From contig NZ_CP020700.1 in NCBI RefSeq assembly GCF_003932715.1, forward strand, positions 2,936,501 to 3,000,500: 64,000 bases of DNA. Reading direction: 5' to 3'. Both the position numbers and the translations under genes were made by a program. Source of the stretch: Streptomyces tsukubensis. Lineage in GTDB: Bacteria; Actinomycetota; Actinomycetes; Streptomycetales; Streptomycetaceae. The notes below the pieces were generated by a model that made no database searches, was not told where the DNA came from, and saw only the letters and a list, made by a program, of their open reading frames with translations. Shown piece by piece: positions 1,447-11,014 of this stretch. Position 1 is the stretch's first letter; the number at the start of each line of letters is the position of its first letter.

Positions 1447-1566
1447 CACCTCGTGCCCCTTCCAACAGAACTGACGGAACATCAGATCGCCGGTCAAGGT
1501 ACGCCCGGCACCCGATGGAAGGAAGACACAGAGCGCGCCTTGTTGACGCGCCCTCCAAAAGAATCG

Positions 1567-1581
1567 TTCCGACGTTCGGAA
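1567..1581. promoter_or_regulatory. 15-bp perfect palindrome upstream of the surface protein operon
   Basis: TTCCGA-CGT-TCGGAA is a perfect inverted repeat about 120 nt upstream of the LPRTG gene start and downstream of the regulator stop. It may be an operator. No regulator is assigned. Confidence 0.3.
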
Positions 1582-1692
1582 GTTGCAGCGATGGGAGCGG
1601 ATCCATTCCGTCGCCGGAGGAGATCAGGCTGCACCGGCCGGGACAGGCCCACATCCCGGACACCGACCAGGAGCCATAGGCGGCTCCCCGGG

Positions 1693-3057
1693 TCAAGCAA
1701 GGAAGAGAGAGGCCCGCTCGTCCAACTCGTTGGCTGCGGTGACGCCGCGACTCTTGAACTGGGCGAGACTTTTACGCATGTCCTGCACCGCGCGGCGGGT
1801 CCGCACGGACCGTACCCCGGCCATGCTGTCGAGGGCCCTGCCCCAGGTGCTGCACGCCTGCTCGATTCCGCCCTCGGCGAGTTCCATCTTGGCCTGTGCG
1901 ACGAGGTCGAGCGCATGGATGCGGGCGTACGTAGTGGACGGCCTGCTCGCAGCGGCTGCCGCATAATTCTCGGCGGCACCCCTGCGGTCGCCGAGCCGGG
2001 AGAAGACTTTCGCCGAGCGGGAGTTGACCGTGGCGCGGGCCGGGCCCCAGGAGCGCGCCCAGTACGGCATGTCGTCACTGTCGGCCGCGTCGAGGAGATC
2101 CCGGGCCCGTTGGACAGCCCGCACGGCGGGGCGACGCTGGTTGGTCGCGGCCAAGCCGTGAGCATGGGTGACGGTGAAAAGGGCTTCGGTCGCGGCATCC
2201 AGGCGGCCGACGACGCGTGACAACGCCGTCTCGGACAGGGCAAAGGTCTGAGAGGGATGCCGGAGCTTCATGCCCTGCTGGGCCAGGGTCCGCAGGACGA
2301 ACGCGTCGTGGCCGACGATCCCGGACTCGACGGCGAGGGCGTACGACTGGTGGTAGTACCGCTGCGCGAGCCCCTGCTCCCCGGCGTCGTAAGCCTTCCA
2401 TCCGGCGAGGTGCACGCCGACCGCCGCTGCCGACAGCATCTGCCGACGGTCCTCGTGGGTGCGGAACGAGCCCCGGCACAGGGCAGCCACGTCGGAACTG
2501 AGGTACTGGATCAGAGCGGAGCGTCCGTGCCGGCCTCCGTGGCGTTCGTCGATCTCGGTGAACATGCTGATCATGTCGCGGACGGCGGCGACCTCGGCGC
2601 TCCCGGCAACGGCGCCGCGGCGGACAGCGGCTGTGCGCTCGGCTCCCTCACCGACGTACTCCAGCGGCAGGTGCATGGCAGCAACGGAATATGCCGAGGT
2701 GGCAAGGAATTTACGACGGTCCAAGTCAGCCCTCCACACCCGCGCGAGGACACGCATCGGGTCGGGGCCGATGATCAGCCCGAGGCCCGGATCGGATTCG
2801 TCCATCGACCGTAACCCGAGTTCGGCAGGGGAGTAGATCCGTCCCGTCTTGCGGAACAGGGCCTCGCAGACGAACGCGGCGGTATCGCCGTCGGGTTCAG
2901 CCCCCCGCAACCACTTGTGCACCGTCGAGGGGTTCGTCCTTAGATGCACTCCGACTTCGGCCGCTGCCCGAACCACACCGCGGGCGAGTGCGTCGAACGT
3001 CATACCTGCGTCGGTGATGGCTGCCTCTAGCTGCCGGTTCGTCACGGCATTGGCCAT
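1693..3057 (-). CDS. XRE-type regulator with C-terminal TPR-like region
   Basis: The 454-aa product has an N-terminal helix-turn-helix (about residues 5-60, with NPSTVHKWLRGAEP as the recognition region). It then carries the Tat-like phrase DRRKFLATSAYSVAAMHLPL near residue 110, typical of a large Streptomyces regulator family, followed by an all-helical TPR-like region to the end. The ATG has AAAGGGAC upstream. One Leu codon (plus-strand 2812-2814) is TTA, so translation should depend on bldA. It is divergent from the ATPase/kinase cassette and probably controls it. Sensing through the TPR region is inference. Confidence 0.8.
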   Translation of the reverse strand: MANAVTNRQLEAAITDAGMTFDALARGVVRAAAEVGVHLRTNPSTVHKWLRGAEPDGDTAAFVCEALFRKTGRIYSPAELGLRSMDESDPGLGLIIGPDPMRVLARVWRADLDRRKFLATSAYSVAAMHLPLEYVGEGAERTAAVRRGAVAGSAEVAAVRDMISMFTEIDERHGGRHGRSALIQYLSSDVAALCRGSFRTHEDRRQMLSAAAVGVHLAGWKAYDAGEQGLAQRYYHQSYALAVESGIVGHDAFVLRTLAQQGMKLRHPSQTFALSETALSRVVGRLDAATEALFTVTHAHGLAATNQRRPAVRAVQRARDLLDAADSDDMPYWARSWGPARATVNSRSAKVFSRLGDRRGAAENYAAAAASRPSTTYARIHALDLVAQAKMELAEGGIEQACSTWGRALDSMAGVRSVRTRRAVQDMRKSLAQFKSRGVTAANELDERASLFLA

Positions 3058-3085
3058 GGCCTGTCCCTTTCTCAGTACCGGGTGG

Positions 3086-3101
3086 CGGTAAACACGGTAA
3101 A
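3086..3101 (-). promoter_or_regulatory. Direct repeat CGGTAAA x2 upstream of the regulator
   Basis: Two copies of CGGTAAA start 9 nt apart (3086 and 3095), about 30 nt before the regulator's ATG and inside the 224-nt divergent promoter region. The position suits an autoregulatory operator or promoter element; function is inferred. Confidence 0.3.
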
Positions 3102-3281
3102 GACGCCGGACGCTTCTCAGCGGAGACTTCGGAAATCGAACGCCGGTTGACTTGATGTCGGCCGCCCTGGCCCGAGCCGATGCGGCTCGGGGCAACCCCC
3201 GGGTGGCTGAATCCGAATGCTGCCGCCCTGACGGCCCCCGCCGTCCGGAATCAGCAGCCCTTGCGACCGGGAGAGCGGGCC

Positions 3282-3707
3282 GTGACAACCCACCAACCGA
3301 TCAGAAGCGTACCGATCGTGCGGCCCACGACGGTTTCGCTGCCGTACGAGCCGCAGTCCGCCTCGGCGGCCCGCCGACTCGTACGCGACGTACTCGCCGA
3401 CTGGGAACTGGAGCACTTATCCGATGACGCCGAACTCGTCGTCACCGAACTGGTCTCCAATGCCACCAAGACCGGATGCCGCACCTCCATGCTGGTCAGC
3501 GCGGCACGGGTAGACAACCGGGCCGGCCGGGTCGTGCGGTTCGCGGTGCGGGACGGCTCCCGTACCCTGCCGGTCCTGATCCCCCGGGCAACCGGCGACT
3601 CCGGCCGGGGCCTGGCCCTGGTGGACCACCTCGCCGCGTTCTGGGGCGTCGACATGGAGCCCCACGGCAAGACGATCTGGGCCGACCTCCGGGTGGATCG
3701 GACGTGA
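3282..3707 (+). CDS. ATP-binding anti-sigma-type regulatory protein (HATPase_c_2)
   Basis: The 141-aa product is a stand-alone GHKL ATPase domain of the RsbW/SpoIIAB type: N box ELVVTELVSNATK, G1 box FAVRDGS, G2 region GDSGRGLALVDHLA. Such proteins bind sigma factors or anti-sigma antagonists; many in Streptomyces have unknown partners. The GTG at 3282 is preferred over the upstream ATG at 3180 because it follows a purine-rich site and removes a non-conserved leader. Leu46 is TTA (3417-3419), so bldA is needed. Its stop overlaps the GTG of the next small ORF. Confidence 0.8.
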   Translation: MTTHQPIRSVPIVRPTTVSLPYEPQSASAARRLVRDVLADWELEHLSDDAELVVTELVSNATKTGCRTSMLVSAARVDNRAGRVVRFAVRDGSRTLPVLIPRATGDSGRGLALVDHLAAFWGVDMEPHGKTIWADLRVDRT

Positions 3708-3883
3708 GCGCCCGGCACCGGGGCGAGCAGCGCGACTCTCTCGGCGACGCCCTGACCGCCCTGGGGATCCTCGGTCACACGATCGCCCTCGGTCTGTTGA
3801 CCGACCTGATCGTGAACCACGACCGGGCTGACGCCGTGGAGCGTGCTCCCTCGGCCGCCGCGCCGGACAACCCGGCCTTCTGA
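3704..3883 (+). CDS. Small hypothetical protein (59 aa), coupled to the ATPase
   Basis: The start GTG overlaps the previous stop (GTGA), a classic coupling signal. The product has a central amphipathic/hydrophobic helix (LTALGILGHTIALGLLTDL) and a charged, Pro/Ala-rich tail. No known family is recognised. Codon use is GC3-biased as in its neighbours, which supports coding. It could be a partner of the ATPase; that is inference. Confidence 0.6.
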   Translation: MSARHRGEQRDSLGDALTALGILGHTIALGLLTDLIVNHDRADAVERAPSAAAPDNPAF

Positions 3884-3959
3884 CCGCCCCTGTTCTCCCC
3901 GCCCGCGCCGCCGCCTACAGCCTGCCGGACGGAATCCGTCGCACCGAAGGAGCTTCGCC

Positions 3960-4559
3960 ATGCCACAAACCGCCGCACCGCCCCCGGAAGGCCCGCAGCC
4001 TCCGCCGTCGTGCCCGACCCCGTCCGTCACCATCGCGTTCAGTGGGCCGGACAACGTGGGCAAGACCAAGCAGATCGGCATCCTGGCTCGCAGGATCGGC
4101 CCGGCGGCCTGCGCCACGGGTCGGCTGGACGACTACGACCCGCGCTGGAACGCAATCAAGACCGCGGGCATGGGTGCCTGGTGGTTCGGACGCGGGGCAA
4201 TCGAGGAGGTAGCCGATGTCCTGGCCTGCTCCTACCTGGAACGTTCCCGCCGGGGAGTCACCGCACCGGTACGACTGGTGGACCGGGGCATCCCCATGCT
4301 GGAAGCCTCCCTCGCCGCCACAGTCGCAGTACGCGAACGTCTGACGGCGGACCAGGCCGCCGACCGGGCACGGATCCTCCTGGAGCCCCTCCGCCGACCT
4401 ACGGGCGGCGGAGGCCGTCGAGCACGGCATCGTGCTGCTCCACGACGAGGACCTCGCAATCGGAACCTCACGCAGCCTCTCCCACGAGCGACATGTCACC
4501 CCGTCCTATGCGGACTACCAGCGGCACCTGCACTTACAGATGCACCGTCTGACCGGTGA
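3960..4559 (+). CDS. P-loop nucleotide (thymidylate-like) kinase, N-terminal part of a frameshifted gene
   Basis: From ATG 3960 the frame encodes a dTMP-kinase-like domain: Walker A GPDNVGKT near residue 25, then VRLVDRGIPMLEASL resembling the DRG segment of nucleoside monophosphate kinases. Around 4391-4400 the frame breaks. Beyond ILLEPLRR this frame turns into Arg/Gly-rich nonsense to the stop at 4559, while the +1-offset frame continues sensibly as DLRAAEAVEHGIVLLHDED into the next ORF. The two ORFs are therefore most likely one gene of about 645 codons with a single extra base, either a sequencing error or a real mutation. Confidence 0.65.
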   Translation: MPQTAAPPPEGPQPPPSCPTPSVTIAFSGPDNVGKTKQIGILARRIGPAACATGRLDDYDPRWNAIKTAGMGAWWFGRGAIEEVADVLACSYLERSRRGVTAPVRLVDRGIPMLEASLAATVAVRERLTADQAADRARILLEPLRRPTGGGGRRARHRAAPRRGPRNRNLTQPLPRATCHPVLCGLPAAPALTDAPSDR

Positions 4560-5904
4560 GGGCAGGTGGGGGAAGGCGGTCGTGATCGGTGAGCGCCGGG
4601 TGATGGCCGTGCAGGACGAGATCCGCCGACACCTGCACCCGCTCACACCCCTCGTCCCGCCCGGGGCGCTGGCGGGCTTGCGGGTCGTAGCCCTTGGGGG
4701 GATGTCGGAGAGTGGCAAGAGCACGGCCGGCGAGTACCTGCGGAACCGGCACGGATACGGCCGTCTCAAGATCGGATACCTGATCGAAGATGCGGCCCAC
4801 CGGGCAGGCATTGCCGACCCTTACCAGATCCCGTCCGTGGTTCGGGCCGAGCTGCTGGTCGACGGCCTCGACCGATACTGCGCGGCCCACCACTTCCTGA
4901 ACCAGGTGACCATCGAATCCCTGCACGACCAGGACGCGGCCTCCGAGCTACGGCGGATGCTGGGCGGCCAACTGAACATCGTCTACCTGGACACCACCCC
5001 CGAGCTCCGGGCCGAACGCGGCACCGCCGGGCCGAACGACGTCGCGGCTCGCGACGTGGTCAAGGCCCGGCGAGGGGCGGCCCAGATCGCCTCCTTCGCG
5101 CACGAGGTCATCGACAACAATGGCAGCCGCCTGCAACTGGAACGACGACTCGACGGGATCGCGCTGGCCCACCGCCGTCCACCGCGAAAGCCGACCACCG
5201 TGCCGGTGAACGCGCTGGGCTTACCCGTGCACCTGGAGTCCTATCTGTCCGCGCTGCTGGACCGCACCACAGTCCAGCAGCCACCCGTAATCGACCTGCT
5301 CGCGGTTACCGGCAGCGGTGCGCGCGGCAAGTACCAGCACGGCTGGTCCGACCTGGACGTTTTCGTCATCGCCGGCCAGGACAGCATCCCCGCCCTCCGC
5401 CGGGCTCTGGCCGAACTGGAAACCGAACTCGGCGGGGTCAAGCTCGGTCTCACAGTGCTGACCGAGGACGAGTGCCGCACCGGCGCCGTCACCTCCCGGC
5501 TGCTGCACGTTCTCGCCTTGATCGGTTCGGGCGCTCTTGCCCCGCTGTGGTGCCGTCCCGGCCTGGCTCTCCCCGTCCCGGACGCTGCCACCGACGTCGC
5601 CGCCGCCGTCGAGTCCGGGGTGCAGGCCGCTGTCGAGATCCGCCGCCAGCTCCTCAAGGGCGCCACGGACCTGCGGGCCCTGTTCAAGATCACCGCACTG
5701 CTGGCCAAGGTGATGCTCCGTTTCGAGGGCACCGAGTGCGCCTCGGACAACGACGCCCTGGCCGTCTTCCTGGACCGCGACCCGGCCGTTGAAGCCGCCC
5801 TTGGGCTCGAAGCCCGCGAGGACCGGGACAAGGCGGTGGAGCTGGCCACCATCGTGCTCGGCCACTGGCTGGCCACCCTCGCCCTCCCCACGAGCCGCGC
5901 ATGA
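4432..5904 (+). CDS. Adenylate-kinase-like P-loop plus minimal nucleotidyltransferase (C-terminal part of frameshifted gene)
   Basis: The product has two recognisable domains. Near residue 90 there is a second P-loop (GGMSESGKSTAGEYL) with a kinase-like body ending around residue 235. Near residue 290 there is a minimal nucleotidyltransferase motif (GSGARGKYQHGWSDLDVFVI, the GS...SDxDxxV signature). A helical tail follows. Homologous sequence extends upstream of the GTG at 4432 in the same frame, so this is not the natural start. Two Leu codons are TTA (4534 and 5221). The stop overlaps the ATG of the phosphotransferase (ATGA). Substrates are unknown; it may nucleotidylate or phosphorylate a small molecule. 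Confidence 0.7.
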   Translation: MLLHDEDLAIGTSRSLSHERHVTPSYADYQRHLHLQMHRLTGEGRWGKAVVIGERRVMAVQDEIRRHLHPLTPLVPPGALAGLRVVALGGMSESGKSTAGEYLRNRHGYGRLKIGYLIEDAAHRAGIADPYQIPSVVRAELLVDGLDRYCAAHHFLNQVTIESLHDQDAASELRRMLGGQLNIVYLDTTPELRAERGTAGPNDVAARDVVKARRGAAQIASFAHEVIDNNGSRLQLERRLDGIALAHRRPPRKPTTVPVNALGLPVHLESYLSALLDRTTVQQPPVIDLLAVTGSGARGKYQHGWSDLDVFVIAGQDSIPALRRALAELETELGGVKLGLTVLTEDECRTGAVTSRLLHVLALIGSGALAPLWCRPGLALPVPDAATDVAAAVESGVQAAVEIRRQLLKGATDLRALFKITALLAKVMLRFEGTECASDNDALAVFLDRDPAVEAALGLEAREDRDKAVELATIVLGHWLATLALPTSRA

Positions 5905-7031
5905 ACTCCCCTGCCGCTCCGCGGCCGGTCTTCCGCAAGGCCATGGACCCGGCGAAGGCCGACGCCGAGATCCGAGGCTGGCAGGCCGTCGCCCGCGTCC
6001 TGCCGGTGCCCGAGTTACTGGGCCGCACTGAACTCCCGGACCGGCACCTGGTGGCCTACGAGGACGTGTTTGCAGGCGGCCGGTGCAGCTCTCTGCTGGG
6101 CGATCTCATCGCCACCGCCGACCGCGACCGCAAGGCCCTGCCCAAGCTCACCACGCTGATCGACGCCGTCTGCGACAGCTGGTTGGCCGGCATCTCCGAC
6201 ACGGGCCGGGCCGAGCCGCTGGAAGCCTGTGTGCCCGGCCTCTACCTGGACCGCATCCGTCCCGGGGGCCGGATCGACACCTGGTACCTGTCCGACCGTC
6301 TGAGCGTCCCGGCACCGCGCACCGGCACACCGATCCCGCTGAGATCCCTCACAGGCCACGACTTCGTCGTCAACACCATTCCGCTGCAGTTCGACCTCCC
6401 GGCCGCTGTTCGGCAGGCACGGGAGACTCTCACTCCGGGCAGCCGCTGGACCACCGCTCTCACCCAGGGCGACCCGACAGAGCCGAACATCGCAGACCCG
6501 CTGTGCTGGCTCGACTTCGAGTACGCCGGCCGGAACGCCGTTGCGGGGGAGATCGCCGTCCTCCTCTGGTATCTGCTCGGTATGGGCGGCTGGCTCGTGC
6601 CGACCTACCAGCCGGACATATACGACCGCACTCTGCCGCTCCACCTGCCGCCCATCGCCACCCCTCGGCTGGAACACTACGGCTACGACGAGCGCCACCA
6701 CCGCCTGGAGATCCGCTACAGCTGGCTGGTCGGGACCGGGCGCCAGGCAGCGATCGCCCGTCTGCTGGAGCGCGTGCGGACCGACCTCGCACCGGCCTCC
6801 GGTCTCGGATCGGAACGCCTCCTCTCCCAGCTCCGGCACTTCCTCACCGTGCGCATACTCGGGGTGGTCCCGCCCTGCCTCCTGAGCGGCGACGACTTGC
6901 TCCTGCTGCTGGCCAAGCTGGCGGAGATCCAACATCCCGACACCGTCGGTGGAGTCTTCACCCATACCCGGCCCGTCCTGACGACCGGCCCCGGCGATTG
7001 GACAGTTGATGACGACAACCACACGGTTTGA
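5901..7031 (+). CDS. Aminoglycoside-phosphotransferase-like kinase
   Basis: The 376-aa product has the APH/ChoK-type catalytic signature: QGDPTEPNIAD (equivalent of HGDxxxxN) followed by WLDFEYAGRNA (the DxE/DFG-like metal-binding segment), at about residues 190-215. The preceding part resembles a small N-lobe (LVAYEDVFAGG). The canonical catalytic-loop His is replaced by Gln. One Leu codon is TTA (6015-6017). It is coupled to the kinase/nucleotidyltransferase by ATGA and overlaps the SDR gene by 23 nt, so the products probably act in one pathway. The substrate is unknown; antibiotic resistance is not implied. Confidence 0.7.
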   Translation: MNSPAAPRPVFRKAMDPAKADAEIRGWQAVARVLPVPELLGRTELPDRHLVAYEDVFAGGRCSSLLGDLIATADRDRKALPKLTTLIDAVCDSWLAGISDTGRAEPLEACVPGLYLDRIRPGGRIDTWYLSDRLSVPAPRTGTPIPLRSLTGHDFVVNTIPLQFDLPAAVRQARETLTPGSRWTTALTQGDPTEPNIADPLCWLDFEYAGRNAVAGEIAVLLWYLLGMGGWLVPTYQPDIYDRTLPLHLPPIATPRLEHYGYDERHHRLEIRYSWLVGTGRQAAIARLLERVRTDLAPASGLGSERLLSQLRHFLTVRILGVVPPCLLSGDDLLLLLAKLAEIQHPDTVGGVFTHTRPVLTTGPGDWTVDDDNHTV

Positions 7032-7803
7032 CCGGTCCATTGCCGTGCTCCCGCTCCAGGGCAGGGTCGCGCTGGTCACTGGTGGAGCCACCGGCATCGG
7101 CGCCGCAATCAGCCGGGCTCTGGCAGCCGCCGGGGCCGATGTCGCCGTCAACCACCTCGCCCAGATCTCCGAGGCACGGGCGGTCCTCGGAGATGTACAC
7201 CGCGAGGGGCGCACAGGCATCGAGGTCAGTGCCGACCTCACCGACCCCGACGCCGTCATTGCGCTGGCCGATCAGATCGAATCGGAGCTCGGCCCGATCG
7301 GTGTCCTCGTCAACAACGCGGGCACTTACCCTCGTACCCCGTGGGACGAACTCGGCGAGGACCAGTGGGCCCGCGCCATCGAGTCCAACCTGACGATCCA
7401 CTACCGCGCCTGTCGGGCCGTCATTCCCAGCATGGCTGACCGCCGATGGGGCCGGATCGTCAGTATCGGCAGCATCAACGCCCGCGCCGGGCGCCCAGGA
7501 CTGACCGCCTACAGCACCGCGAAGGCCGGACTGATCGGCCTCACACGTTCACTGGCCAGGGAACTCGGTCCCGCCGGAGTCTGCGTGAACACTGTCCTGC
7601 CCGGCGCCATCCAGGTCGAAGCGGAGAACTGCCTGCCCGCCCACCACCGCGCCCGGCCTCAGGACCAGATCCGCCGCCAATGCGTCCAGCGCCGGGGACG
7701 CCCGGAGGACGTCGCCGCCGCGGTCGCTTTCCTCGCCGGCCCCAGTGCGTCCTTCGTCACCGGCCAGTCGTTGCACGTCGACGGAGGCTGGCTCCTCCAC
7801 TGA
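7009..7803 (+). CDS. Short-chain dehydrogenase/reductase (FabG-like)
   Basis: The 264-aa classical SDR has cofactor motif TGGATGIG, NNAG (VLVNNAGTYP), a catalytic Ser in VSIGSINA, the YSTAK catalytic Tyr/Lys and a C-terminal VTGQSLHVDGGW. The family reduces carbonyls or oxidises alcohols with NAD(P). The ATG at 7009 lies inside the end of the phosphotransferase gene. No TTA codon was found here. Its place between a phosphotransferase and a Nudix hydrolase suggests tailoring of a sugar or nucleotide-like compound; that is inference. Confidence 0.85.
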   Translation: MTTTTRFDRSIAVLPLQGRVALVTGGATGIGAAISRALAAAGADVAVNHLAQISEARAVLGDVHREGRTGIEVSADLTDPDAVIALADQIESELGPIGVLVNNAGTYPRTPWDELGEDQWARAIESNLTIHYRACRAVIPSMADRRWGRIVSIGSINARAGRPGLTAYSTAKAGLIGLTRSLARELGPAGVCVNTVLPGAIQVEAENCLPAHHRARPQDQIRRQCVQRRGRPEDVAAAVAFLAGPSASFVTGQSLHVDGGWLLH

Positions 7804-7841
7804 CCGGACCGTCCCCACCGAACAGAAAGCAGAGCACCACC

Positions 7842-8267
7842 ATGCAGAAGCGAGTCCGCGCCGTTCTCATCACCCCGAACGACACCATGCTGCTGATCAA
7901 ACGCGTCCGCCCCGGCATCCCCGTGTACTGGGTAACCGTCGGAGGCAAGGTCGAGCCGGCGGATGCCTGCCCTGATGACGCGCTGCGGCGCGAGGTCCGC
8001 GAGGAGATCGCCGGCGAGGCCGAGATCGTCGGTCTCCTCCACACCATCGAGACCGAAGACGAGCGACAGGACTTCTACCTGGCCAGGGTCGAGAAATGGA
8101 ACTTCGACGACCGCACCGGCCCCGAGTTCAGCCAGGAAGGCCGGGGCGAATACCTGCTGGAGGAGATTCCCCTGACCACCTCGGCCGTCGACGCCGTCAA
8201 CCTCCTCCCCCGGCAGTTCGCCGCCGTACTGCGTGAGGCGATCGCACTTGGCGAACTGCTGACCTGA
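7842..8267 (+). CDS. Nudix hydrolase
   Basis: The 141-aa protein is one Nudix domain: VTVGGKVEPADACPDDA then LRREVREEI, with the REVREE helix that binds metal. The loop before it is slightly longer than the strict GX5EX7REUXEE spacing. Nudix enzymes hydrolyse nucleoside diphosphates linked to another group. It is the last gene of the cassette, 38 nt after the SDR stop, and is followed by a hairpin. Confidence 0.85.
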   Translation: MQKRVRAVLITPNDTMLLIKRVRPGIPVYWVTVGGKVEPADACPDDALRREVREEIAGEAEIVGLLHTIETEDERQDFYLARVEKWNFDDRTGPEFSQEGRGEYLLEEIPLTTSAVDAVNLLPRQFAAVLREAIALGELLT

Positions 8268-8278
8268 CCCCGCTGACC

Positions 8279-8297
8279 CCGGCGGTCGGGCCGCCGG
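8279..8297. terminator. Hairpin between convergent Nudix and TetR genes
   Basis: CCGGCGG-TCGGG-CCGCCGG forms a perfect 7-bp stem with a 5-nt loop, 12 nt after the Nudix stop. There is no U-tract, as is common in Streptomyces terminators. Confidence 0.5.
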
Positions 8298-8376
8298 AGC
8301 CCGCGCCCGTCGACCCGGGCCGGGAACCGGCCTCACCGGGGCGGCCTCTCCGCAGGCGCCGGTGCACCAAGAGCGC

Positions 8377-8988
8377 TCAGCTTCCGGGCCGCGCCAACAG
8401 GCCCTCGACCAGATGTTCCAGCGCATCCACCGCCTCCGCGCGCGCCGCATCGGGGTCGTCCGCGTGGGCCACCATCAGGGCCGCCTCGTCCAGGGCGCCG
8501 AGGAGGATATGGGCCAGGGGCGGTACGGGCCTGGGGGGCATCGCCCCGGAGGCCATCGCCGACTCCAGGGCCGCCGTGACCACCCCGAGGCCGTGCTCCT
8601 GGCCGATCTCGCGCCATCGCCGCCAGCCCAGCACGCCCGGCGCGTCCAGCAGCAGGATGCGCTCCACGTCCGGTTCAGCAAAGGCGTCGAGAAAGGCGCG
8701 CGCACCCGTCTTCAGCGCCTGCACCGGATCCGCCGCGGATGCCGTGATCCGCCCGGCGATCCGCTCGGTCAGCTCCGCCTCGACCGTCTGCACCGTGGCG
8801 TCGAACAGATCGGTCTTGTCGCGGAACTGGTGGTAGAGCGCACCCCGGGTCACCCCGGCGGCCCGGACGATCTCCTCGGTCCCCACCCCCGCGTAGCCGC
8901 GTTCGGCGAACAGCGTCCGGGCGGCGGAGACAAGAGCCGCCCGGGTCGCCCGGGACCGCTGGGTGTGCTTGGTGCCGGTCGGTTCCAT
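8377..8988 (-). CDS. TetR/AcrR family repressor
   Basis: The 203-aa product has an N-terminal TetR helix-turn-helix (ALVSAARTLFAERGYAG ... VTRGALYHQFRDKTDLF, residues about 15-65) and a helical ligand-binding domain. ATG 8988 follows AAGGGGG. It is divergent from an alpha/beta hydrolase across an 84-nt gap holding a 19-bp palindrome, so it very likely represses itself and the hydrolase. The ligand is unknown. Confidence 0.9.
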   Translation of the reverse strand: MEPTGTKHTQRSRATRAALVSAARTLFAERGYAGVGTEEIVRAAGVTRGALYHQFRDKTDLFDATVQTVEAELTERIAGRITASAADPVQALKTGARAFLDAFAEPDVERILLLDAPGVLGWRRWREIGQEHGLGVVTAALESAMASGAMPPRPVPPLAHILLGALDEAALMVAHADDPDAARAEAVDALEHLVEGLLARPGS

Positions 8989-9006
8989 CCTGCCCCCTTG
9001 AGTTCC

Positions 9007-9049
9007 GTACAGTCTGCATGCCACTGTACGTACATACAGTCTGTATGTA
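9007..9049. promoter_or_regulatory. TetR operator: perfect 19-bp palindrome plus a second site
   Basis: TACATACAG-T-CTGTATGTA (9031-9049) is a perfect palindrome. A second copy of its core, TACAGTCTGCATG (9008-9020), lies 27 bp to the left with one change from TACAGTCTGTATG (9035-9047). A further inverted repeat GTACAGT/ACTGTAC (9007-9013, 9023-9029) links them. The position between the divergent TetR and hydrolase genes makes this the probable operator of both. Confidence 0.75.
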
Positions 9050-9072
9050 ATTTTGACGCGAGGGGCGCAGCC

Positions 9073-9933
9073 ATGCCACAGCTCACGCTCGACCAGGGAA
9101 CCGTCCACTACCGGGACACCGGTGAAGGCGAGCCGGTGCTCCTTCTGCACGGCTACCTCATGGACAGCAGACTCTGGGAACCCGTCGTCGAACGGCTCGC
9201 CCCGGACTTCCGGTGCATCACTCCCGACCTGCCCCTGGGCGCCCACCGCATCCCGATGAACCCCGGCGCGGACCTCAGCCTGGCGGGGATCGCCCGGATG
9301 GTCGTCGATCTGATCGCCGGGCTCGGTCTGCCCCGGGTGACCCTGGTCGGCAACGATCTCGGCACGGCCGTCGCGCAGTTGGTCGCCGCCCGCCACCCCG
9401 AGCGGATCGGCCGTCTCGTCCTCACCAACGGCGAGTGCTTCGACAACTGCCCCTCGCCCTGGTTCAGATCACTCGGCCCCGCCTCCCGGGTGCCCGGGCT
9501 GCTCGCCCTGACCTTCCGGGGCCTGCGGTTGCGTGCGGTCCGCCGGATGCCCTTCGCGTTCGGGCTGCTGACCAAGGGTGCACTGCCCCATGAGCTGATC
9601 GACGACTGGCTGGGGGCCTTCTTCACCGACCCCGGGGTCCGGCGGGACTGCATCAAGGTCACCCGTGGGATCGTCCCCACGGCCCTGCTCGAACCGGCGG
9701 TGCGGCTCGCCTTCTTCGACCGGCCCACTCTGCTCGTCTTCGCCCGCGAGGACCGGCTCTTCCCGTATGCGCACGGCGAGCGGCTGGCCGCGCTCGTGCC
9801 CGGCGCCCGGCTGGAGACGGTTCTCGACAGCCGGACCTGGCTGATGCGCGATCAGCCCGAGCTGACGGCCCGGCTCATCGGGGACTTCATCCGCAGCACC
9901 CCCGTGGACGCGGCACCGGCGGAGATGAGCTAG
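9073..9933 (+). CDS. Alpha/beta hydrolase with Asp in the nucleophile position
   Basis: The 286-aa alpha/beta-hydrolase fold has the oxyanion region LLLHGYLMD and a nucleophile elbow reading VGNDLGTAV, with Asp where esterases have Ser. The acid region is FAREDRLFP. The late catalytic His seen in most members (GH...) is replaced in DSRTWLMRDQPE. Asp nucleophiles occur in haloalkane dehalogenases, but the missing His argues against simple dehalogenase chemistry. It is probably controlled by the divergent TetR protein. The substrate is unknown. Confidence 0.8.
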   Translation: MPQLTLDQGTVHYRDTGEGEPVLLLHGYLMDSRLWEPVVERLAPDFRCITPDLPLGAHRIPMNPGADLSLAGIARMVVDLIAGLGLPRVTLVGNDLGTAVAQLVAARHPERIGRLVLTNGECFDNCPSPWFRSLGPASRVPGLLALTFRGLRLRAVRRMPFAFGLLTKGALPHELIDDWLGAFFTDPGVRRDCIKVTRGIVPTALLEPAVRLAFFDRPTLLVFAREDRLFPYAHGERLAALVPGARLETVLDSRTWLMRDQPELTARLIGDFIRSTPVDAAPAEMS

Positions 9934-9953
9934 ACCACAGGAACGCGGTCTAG
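9930..9953. terminator. Inverted repeat carrying both convergent stop codons
   Basis: CTAGACC (9930-9936) and GGTCTAG (9947-9953) form a perfect 7-bp stem. The TAG of the hydrolase lies in one arm and the TAG of the opposing ATPase in the other. It is probably a bidirectional terminator in a 16-nt gap. Confidence 0.45.
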
Positions 9954-10471
9954 GACATCGCCAGTTCGGCCCAGACCGTTTTGCCGGGGGCGCCGGGGGT
10001 GCGGACGACGCCCCAGTCGAGGCAGAGGCGCTGGACGATGAACATGCCGTGGCCGCCGGGGCGGCCGGCCCGGTGCGGGGTGCGGGGGGCCGGCTGGCCC
10101 GCGCCCCCGTCGGAGACCTCCAGGCGCAGCACCTTGCCGTCGCAGGCGACCCGCAGTTCGTCGGGGCCCTCCGCGTGCAGGCAGGCGTTGGTGACCAGTT
10201 CGGAGACGACGAGGAGTACGTCCTCGGCGGCGGCCCGGCGGTCGGCGGATGCGGCGGGCAGCCAGCCCCAGTCGTAGAGCGCCTGGCGGGTGAAGTCGCG
10301 GGCCAGCGGCACGATCCCGGCGGCGCCGGCCAGCGCCAGCCGCCGCACCTGGCGCACGGGGCGGGCAGCACCGTGCGGTGCCGTGTCGTACGGCGCGGTG
10401 GGGGCGCTGCGCCCCCCGGCGTCGCTCGGCTCGGGGCCGAGGTCGCCCGGCTGCGGCCGGGTGGTGCTCAT
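9950..10471 (-). CDS. Anti-sigma factor-type ATP-binding protein (RsbW-like)
   Basis: The 173-aa product has a disordered Pro-rich N-terminus of about 40 residues, then a GHKL ATPase domain: N box LLVVSELVTNACLHA, G1 LEVSDGGAG, G2 GGHGMFIVQRL and a terminal KTVWAELA. RsbW-type proteins hold a sigma factor inactive and phosphorylate a STAS partner. The STAS gene and a SigB-type sigma gene lie immediately to the right, so all three parts of a partner-switching module are present. Confidence 0.8.
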   Translation of the reverse strand: MSTTRPQPGDLGPEPSDAGGRSAPTAPYDTAPHGAARPVRQVRRLALAGAAGIVPLARDFTRQALYDWGWLPAASADRRAAAEDVLLVVSELVTNACLHAEGPDELRVACDGKVLRLEVSDGGAGQPAPRTPHRAGRPGGHGMFIVQRLCLDWGVVRTPGAPGKTVWAELAMS

Positions 10472-10642
10472 CGGCGCTTCACCTCACCCAATCACCAGAT
10501 CGCCTGCTTGCTGGACATCAGAGTGCCCGACGGCGCACGCTCCGTGCGGGACCTGTGGAAACTCTTCTGCCCCGCGGATCAGTGACAACACTCACCCGTG
10601 CCGTCGAAGGAAAAACCTGCGGAATCGCGCGGGAGGTGCTGC

Positions 10643-11014
10643 TCAGCGGCCGAGGGCCGCGTCGACCGTCTCGTGGAGGGTGAAGACCGCGCCCGCTCCG
10701 GTGATCTCCAGCACCCTCGCCACCACCGGCTGCATCGCGGCCAGATGGACTCCGCCGCCGGCGGCCTCGGCTTTGAGCCGGGCGGTCAGCAGGACGTTCA
10801 GTCCGGTGGAATCGCAGAATTCGAGCTGCGAGCAGTCGAGGACGAGCCGGGAACGCCCTTCGGCGAGGGCTTCGTCCAGCGGGACGCGGAGCAGTTCGGC
10901 CGTATGGTGATCCAGCTCACCGGCCGGTGCGATGACCGCGCTGCGGCCCTCGGTCCTGACCTCGACCCGGAGGCGGCCCTGACTGACGCCGCCCGTGGCG
11001 GTACCGCGGTCCAT
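10643..11014 (-). CDS. STAS-domain anti-sigma factor antagonist
   Basis: The 123-aa STAS domain contains FCDSTGLNVL with the usual phosphorylatable Ser of SpoIIAA/RsbV proteins. ATG 11014 has AAGGGG upstream. When unphosphorylated, such proteins bind the anti-sigma ATPase and free the sigma factor. It is divergent from the sigma factor gene and 171 nt upstream of the ATPase gene on the same strand. Confidence 0.85.
   Translation of the reverse strand: MDRGTATGGVSQGRLRVEVRTEGRSAVIAPAGELDHHTAELLRVPLDEALAEGRSRLVLDCSQLEFCDSTGLNVLLTARLKAEAAGGGVHLAAMQPVVARVLEITGAGAVFTLHETVDAALGR

Follow-up and report, generated by a model that had tools for sequence, protein, structure and literature searches.

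Background

Among the accessory genes described on integrative and conjugative elements (ICEs) of actinomycetes are the mdp-nud-xre cluster and NsdA-like regulators, while pSAM2 owes its conjugal immunity to a Nudix protein, Pif, according to the accessible part of one report (Ghinet et al. 2011, PMC3218068); the cargo of such elements has also been reported, in the available portion of a second paper, to be rich in pseudogenes (PMC9513070). The window analysed here, a 64,000-nucleotide stretch of Streptomyces tsukubensis contig NZ_CP020700.1, holds at 3282-8267 a cassette built around four core enzymes: a protein with two kinase parts and a nucleotidyltransferase domain (KKN), an APH-fold small-molecule kinase, a classical SDR and a Nudix hydrolase. 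The gene set is seemingly unstudied. Its best reading, with a probability of roughly one half, is as an accessory operon, gained by horizontal transfer, whose enzymes synthesise or modify a small molecule that is phosphorylated and resembles a nucleotide. Computation shows which genes are present, how well they are conserved, that they sit in an insert and which folds they encode; every catalytic step and the product are what we infer.

Conservation of the four-enzyme core

Judged by gene order across genomes, the core KKN-APH-SDR-Nudix is a real conserved unit. An alignment of 15 KKN proteins, used as the query against genome contigs, returned 31 loci, of which 29 have APH, 29 Nudix and 27 SDR, one gene order recurring in 29 (27 with SDR). 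SDR is absent from a Kribbella and a metagenome-assembled genome; APH is lacking in L034, where the sequence to either side was inspected, and in L039, which is truncated by the end of its stretch. When the APH of a longer operon described below served as the anchor, 13 of 197 genomes of the order, the window genome included, matched at 1e-20, and the KKN profile matches 12 of these; the thirteenth (G400) shows a GT9-like match with fragmented SDR and phosphatase. SDR matches adjoin APH in all 12 loci read, one genome's locus being left out. The linked enzyme set proposed in an earlier note, made from the letters of the window alone, is thus upheld, since homologues sought elsewhere did not scatter. 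Within the genus, KKN matches were found in 28 of 295 sampled genomes (window genome included), comprising 14 of the window type, 9 longer operons, 1 third layout, 2 with KKN alone and 2 fragments, the type being judged by match span and the neighbours read for some. Computed over 18 of the 20 loci scored as intact in every one of the four frames, distances of the four core proteins correlate at 0.95-0.99, in agreement with co-inheritance. Gene starts in these loci come from our own codon-usage caller; in L071 and L073 it overlooked some genes or ran them together.

Apparent lesions occur in KKN (L024, L026 and L035, with L039 partial), in SDR (L021, L026, L028 and L032) and in APH (L030), and none was seen in Nudix in the 29 loci. 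In L026, about 370 nt (10611-10980) interrupt the KKN match, and frame breaks are present in L024 and L035 too.

The KKN gene and its frame break

All seven frames that the earlier note had described as tightly packed are open on the forward strand. Its overlaps are correct (GTGA at 3704-3707, ATGA at 5901-5904 and 23 nt at 7009-7031), but the packing is loosened by gaps of 76 nt before the kinase-1 frame and 38 nt before the Nudix frame. The two kinases, listed there as separate genes, have to be merged: by alignment, the frames at 3960-4559 (5' part, with the thymidylate-kinase-fold domain) and 4432-5904 (3' part, with the adenylate-kinase-related domain, the nucleotidyltransferase domain and C-terminal helices) are one gene, KKN, with a frame break. 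In 51 of 51 relatives aligned, a single protein holds the kinase-1 part followed by the kinase-2 part and the nucleotidyltransferase, although some records have a late start within kinase 1; relatives of the second frame measure 518-682 aa (best 120 of 290) compared with 490 aa in the window. The two frames overlap by 128 nt, out of register. ATG 3960 is preceded by GGAG, whereas GTG 4432 has no clear Shine-Dalgarno sequence in the preceding 15 nt and is not credible as a start codon. DNA alignment places the break at 4380-4400 on the forward strand (gap at about 4391), where nine relatives have 2 nt more than the window; the kinase-1 frame is homologous up to about 4391, its remaining codons being out of register, and in a profile search of the genome the KKN match breaks at profile position 136. 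KKN is read as a single broken gene because relatives have one protein, the window is 2 nt short and the GTG lacks a clear Shine-Dalgarno sequence. The 51 KKN sequences, like the 47 APH sequences used below, were hand-picked from homologue lists comprising the best 120 of 290, 242 and 251.

The nearest relative among the matches listed, labelled S. tsukubensis, has an intact 648-aa KKN that is 95% identical. A small deletion, unless the sequence carries an error here, splits the gene of the central enzyme in this strain, so the copy may not work and the pathway is probably off. A broken copy fits the high share of pseudogenes reported, in the available portion of the source, for the cargo of such elements (PMC9513070).

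Domains and predicted activities of the core enzymes

Structure comparison assigns kinase 1 a thymidylate-kinase fold with a P-loop and kinase 2 the fold and P-loop of the adenylate-kinase-related protein 3lw7. A Pfam search with the kinase-1 frame returns no family even at a threshold of E 1, and residues W74-W75 of kinase 1 are invariant in 15 sequences aligned. The nucleotidyltransferase domain, in which GSGARG...WSDLD is largely conserved in the alignments, scores 20.1-20.6 bits against NTP_transf_2 in three proteins, the gathering cut-off being 21.

The APH protein (5901-7031, forward strand; motifs QGDxTExN ... GGWLVPxY) has the APH/choline-kinase superfamily fold by structure comparison. 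Members of this superfamily have D and N in the catalytic loop and a metal-site D; Q189, G190, D191, N196 and D205 are invariant in the 47 sequences aligned, Gln standing in place of the His of HGD. The classical SDR (7009-7803, forward strand; PF13561, 1.2e-54) carries the glycine motif and Ser/Tyr/Lys by alignment. In the Nudix hydrolase (7842-8267, forward strand; PF00293, 2e-12) the stretch DRTGPEF....RGEY recurs, slightly altered, in the aligned relatives, and a PDB sequence search returned MutT/NudI-type chains at E 2e-4 to 3e-3; ubiquitin-containing chains also matched and were taken as spurious. An Ala for Glu in the Nudix box of the window was considered as a lesion and dismissed because four other loci (L009, L010, L012 and L030) have the same Ala. 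PDB sequence searches with APH and GT9 gave no match. The folds and motifs fit the four chemistries named in the earlier note, phosphorylation, nucleotidylation, redox change and pyrophosphate cleavage; that all would act on one small molecule is a further step that we infer.

Regulator, candidate operator and clade-specific genes

Two things were overlooked in the earlier note: the nature of the block as an insert, described below, and a regulator. Divergent from the operon, at 1693-3057 on the reverse strand, lies a gene for an NsdA-family TPR-like regulator (NCBIfam NF053720, 371.8 bits, cut-off 75), which falls well short of the model for the transcriptional repressor NsdA itself (NF050130 equivalog, 88.3 bits against a cut-off of 830). 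An NsdA-like match is found upstream on the opposite strand in 19 of the 31 database loci, at 87-88% identity in 4 of them and about 25-34% in the others, and on this positional evidence the regulator belongs to the gene set. A candidate operator at 3086-3104, upstream of the NsdA-like gene, contains CGGTAAA at 3086 and again 9 nt further on, at 3095; its 17-nt stretch GTAAACACGGTAAAGAC (3088-3104) is identical in the window and in 4 of 4 close relatives aligned.

The first two frames of the cassette, counted by the earlier note among its parts, are by their distribution clade-specific accessories of the nearest clade and lie outside the core. The anti-sigma-like HATPase (3282-3707, forward strand; PF13581, HATPase_c_2, 33.5 bits, cut-off 27.4) is found upstream of KKN in L009-L012, with a weak match (35%) in L029, and tblastn matches the 59-aa gene (3704-3883, forward strand) in just three of the 31 database loci, L009, L010 and L011.

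Insertion and mobility

The cassette lies in an inserted block of about 8.5 kb (1483-9949); of eight relatives, chosen out of 24 same-genus genomes, seven lack the block at this site. The flank genes at 778-1482 and 9950-10471 are 0.2-0.65 kb apart in these seven and 8.5 kb apart in the window; no left flank gene was found in the eighth. Direct repeats of at least 10 nt between 1401-1700 and 9901-10000 were sought and none was seen, and among the nine genes called in 1483-9949 Pfam shows no integrase, relaxase or transfer domain. Judged by the integrase, replication and TraB genes that an actinomycete ICE holds within its insert, the block does not qualify as one. A relaxase-like protein is encoded in the stretches read of 7 loci (6 above the Pfam cut-off), and an integrase-like protein in 4 (3 with a domain above cut-off). 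After the S. tsukubensis record, KKN is closest to Kitasatospora proteins (mostly 76-87%), with 83% identity to S. tateyamensis, 81% to Streptomyces sp. CBMA123 and 60-77% to most other Streptomyces, all within the best 120 of 290. The best reading of these observations is that the operon was acquired horizontally and moves between soil bacteria.

Two more specific origins were considered and set aside. As a phage gene set it finds no counterpart in 50,697 phage records searched with KKN (1e-5) and Nudix (1e-6); as a plasmid gene set it is represented, among 72,556 plasmids, by partial KKN matches on 3 Streptomyces plasmids, weak ones on 2 others and APH on 2. The insert also contains a TetR gene (8377-8988, reverse strand) and an alpha/beta-hydrolase gene (9073-9933, forward strand), both assigned by Pfam, which are divergent from each other and do not recur with the cassette in neighbour clustering.

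Other operon layouts

A longer operon has the order Nudix, kinase 1, DUF4254-kinase 2-nucleotidyltransferase, phosphoribosyltransferase, GT9, APH, SDR and histidine phosphatase, kinase 1 being a gene of its own with a border other than that in the window. It is complete in L069, L070 and L074, and L071 and L073 have gaps or merged genes; its families were assigned by Pfam in L069 only. The phosphoribosyltransferase matches PF00156 above cut-off, scores 28.2 against PF15609 (PRTase_2, cut-off 28.8) and carries the loop MLLVDDEVTTG in L069. A third layout, seen in one genome (L076), consists of SDR, KKN, a thymidylate-kinase-like gene, APH and Nudix. Profile comparison supports a single APH family across the three layouts (hhalign E 1.6e-37 and 2.6e-17).

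Several further arrangements were observed. In L069 (8810-10570), DUF4254 is N-terminal to the kinase 2-nucleotidyltransferase near the GT9 gene; in flavobacteria, DUF4254 has been linked to a heptosyltransferase gene in the accessible part of one report (PMC9425974). Near the longer operon in L073 and L074, sequence reading suggests XRE, isochorismatase (Pfam, L074), FAD-reductase-like and second Nudix-like genes. The lone KKN of L034, L072 and L075 (S. rimosus-type) has tuf/fus-side genes to one side and ribosomal-protein genes to the other. SDR and Nudix form one 418-aa frame beside APH on a Streptomyces sp. NBC_01001 plasmid (L108:9050-10306), where KKN has shrunk to a short remnant.

Proposed function and rival explanations

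In the proposed pathway, the APH-fold kinase would act on an acceptor resembling a sugar or nucleoside, phosphorylating one of its hydroxyls; KKN would use its two P-loop domains to phosphorylate nucleotide-like intermediates in succession and its nucleotidyltransferase domain to transfer a nucleoside monophosphate. The SDR could alter an oxidation state and the Nudix enzyme cleave a diphosphate, whether for product release or for clearance of a side product, with the operon presumably under the control of the divergent NsdA-like TPR regulator. In the longer operon, the phosphoribosyltransferase would build a nucleotide from a base and phosphoribosyl pyrophosphate, GT9 would glycosylate it and the histidine phosphatase would take off the last phosphate; by this analogy, phosphoribosyltransferase and phosphatase are the best hint at a nucleoside-like product. 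Several observations weigh against such a pathway. The nucleotidyltransferase domain of KKN falls below the Pfam cut-off (20.1 bits against 21), it has a Lys where, as we presume, a third carboxylate is expected, and the KKN structure comparison, which barely covers that domain, lists no nucleotidyltransferase. The top Foldseek match of APH is an antibiotic kinase. At least some steps are optional, given that SDR is missing from 2 of the 29 loci and that KKN is all that loci of the S. rimosus type retain; the apparent lesions imply either that the product is dispensable or that draft sequence is faulty. Vertical descent would give correlated distances as well. No exporter gene recurs beside the core in neighbour clustering, which is also a weak pointer to an intracellular role.

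Among the alternatives to this accessory pathway, the strongest is that the cassette serves a mobile element, its altered nucleotides blocking or excluding other elements or phages in defence or conjugal immunity. It remains a tentative explanation, perhaps half as credible as the biosynthetic one, and draws on the relaxase-like and integrase-like neighbours; it is made plausible by the NsdA-like regulators, Nudix genes and Pif immunity described on actinomycete ICEs in the accessible part of the report (PMC3218068). Neighbour proteins (133 of 320 within 6 kb: the four closest in each locus, up to 700 aa long, with nine dropped by hand) match 54 PADLOC families at 1e-10, compared with 5 for a control set (133 of 179 proteins taken from the window, the regions flanking it and the orthologous regions in relatives). 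This contrast is in the number of families and not of proteins, though; of the 25 shown, 14 are models of a single family, and the control consists mainly of one core region that recurs from relative to relative. The core moreover lacks a nuclease, protease or membrane effector, and the cassette itself has two generic matches (Nudix to PDC-S07, 4.4e-8; KKN to PDC-M05A, 0.0066), so that 2 of 7 proteins scanned match PADLOC, in unrelated candidate families and not as a known antiphage system. A detoxification operon, whose enzymes would inactivate a competitor's nucleoside-like or aminoglycoside-like toxin, is improbable. So, to the same degree, is a chemical switch, in which the enzymes would make a nucleotide-like signal or modified nucleotide sensed by the element's own NsdA-like TPR regulator, telling the element or its competitors when to transfer, hide or attack; were it true, the relatives that have phosphoribosyltransferase and GT9 would produce variants of this molecule, each operon type speaking its own chemical dialect.

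The remaining alternatives concern the cassette as a genetic object. That its frame break reflects programmed frameshifting or an error of sequencing, and that the cassette works in this strain, is rather unlikely: the intact KKN of the S. tsukubensis-labelled relative and the open APH, SDR and Nudix frames of the window speak for a working cassette, but the 2-nt difference is seen in none of the nine relatives, so no conserved recoding site is apparent. That the genes are adjacent by chance, or the set an artefact of listing open reading frames, could appeal to the split of KKN in the window and to the clade-specific HATPase and 59-aa genes, yet it is contradicted by the recurring gene order and the APH-anchored recovery and has hardly any likelihood left.

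Comparison with known systems

At least three operon layouts are now known for a gene set whose proteins the sources label mostly 'hypothetical' or 'nucleotidyltransferase domain-containing'. The earlier note knew of no described pathway with this combination, and this still holds: Pfam, NCBIfam, PADLOC and PDB sequences return only generic families for the core enzymes, and the gene set was not described in the literature searched, where coverage of subscription papers is thin and a description elsewhere is possible. If the product is nucleotide-like, the operon would open a compact and tractable way to a new modified nucleotide, antibiotic or intracellular signal, and the presence of such enzymes as cargo beside mobility genes and NsdA-like regulators would be explained.

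Kinase 1, kinase 2 and APH share their folds with thymidylate kinase, 3lw7 and 5-methylthioribose kinase, respectively, at just 9-20% identity in the structure alignments, and kinases 1 and 2 of KKN, unlike thymidylate kinase or 3lw7, are fused to a nucleotidyltransferase. Ter-type modules reportedly include a phosphoribosyltransferase-containing set proposed by Anantharaman et al. in 2012 to make a nucleoside-like compound. The longer operon likewise has a phosphoribosyltransferase, whereas the window form has none. We know of no KKN, APH or SDR partner of Pif. Like pif of pSAM2, to which it is likened by description only, the Nudix gene of the cassette belongs to a Streptomyces gene set with traits of mobile elements (PMC3218068, accessible part). 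The mdp-nud-xre cluster has an XRE regulator and an HD-type phosphohydrolase, and KKN, APH and SDR are unmentioned in the accessible part of that report; what it shares with the present cassette is that both are small accessory sets on mobile elements that include a Nudix gene (PMC3218068).
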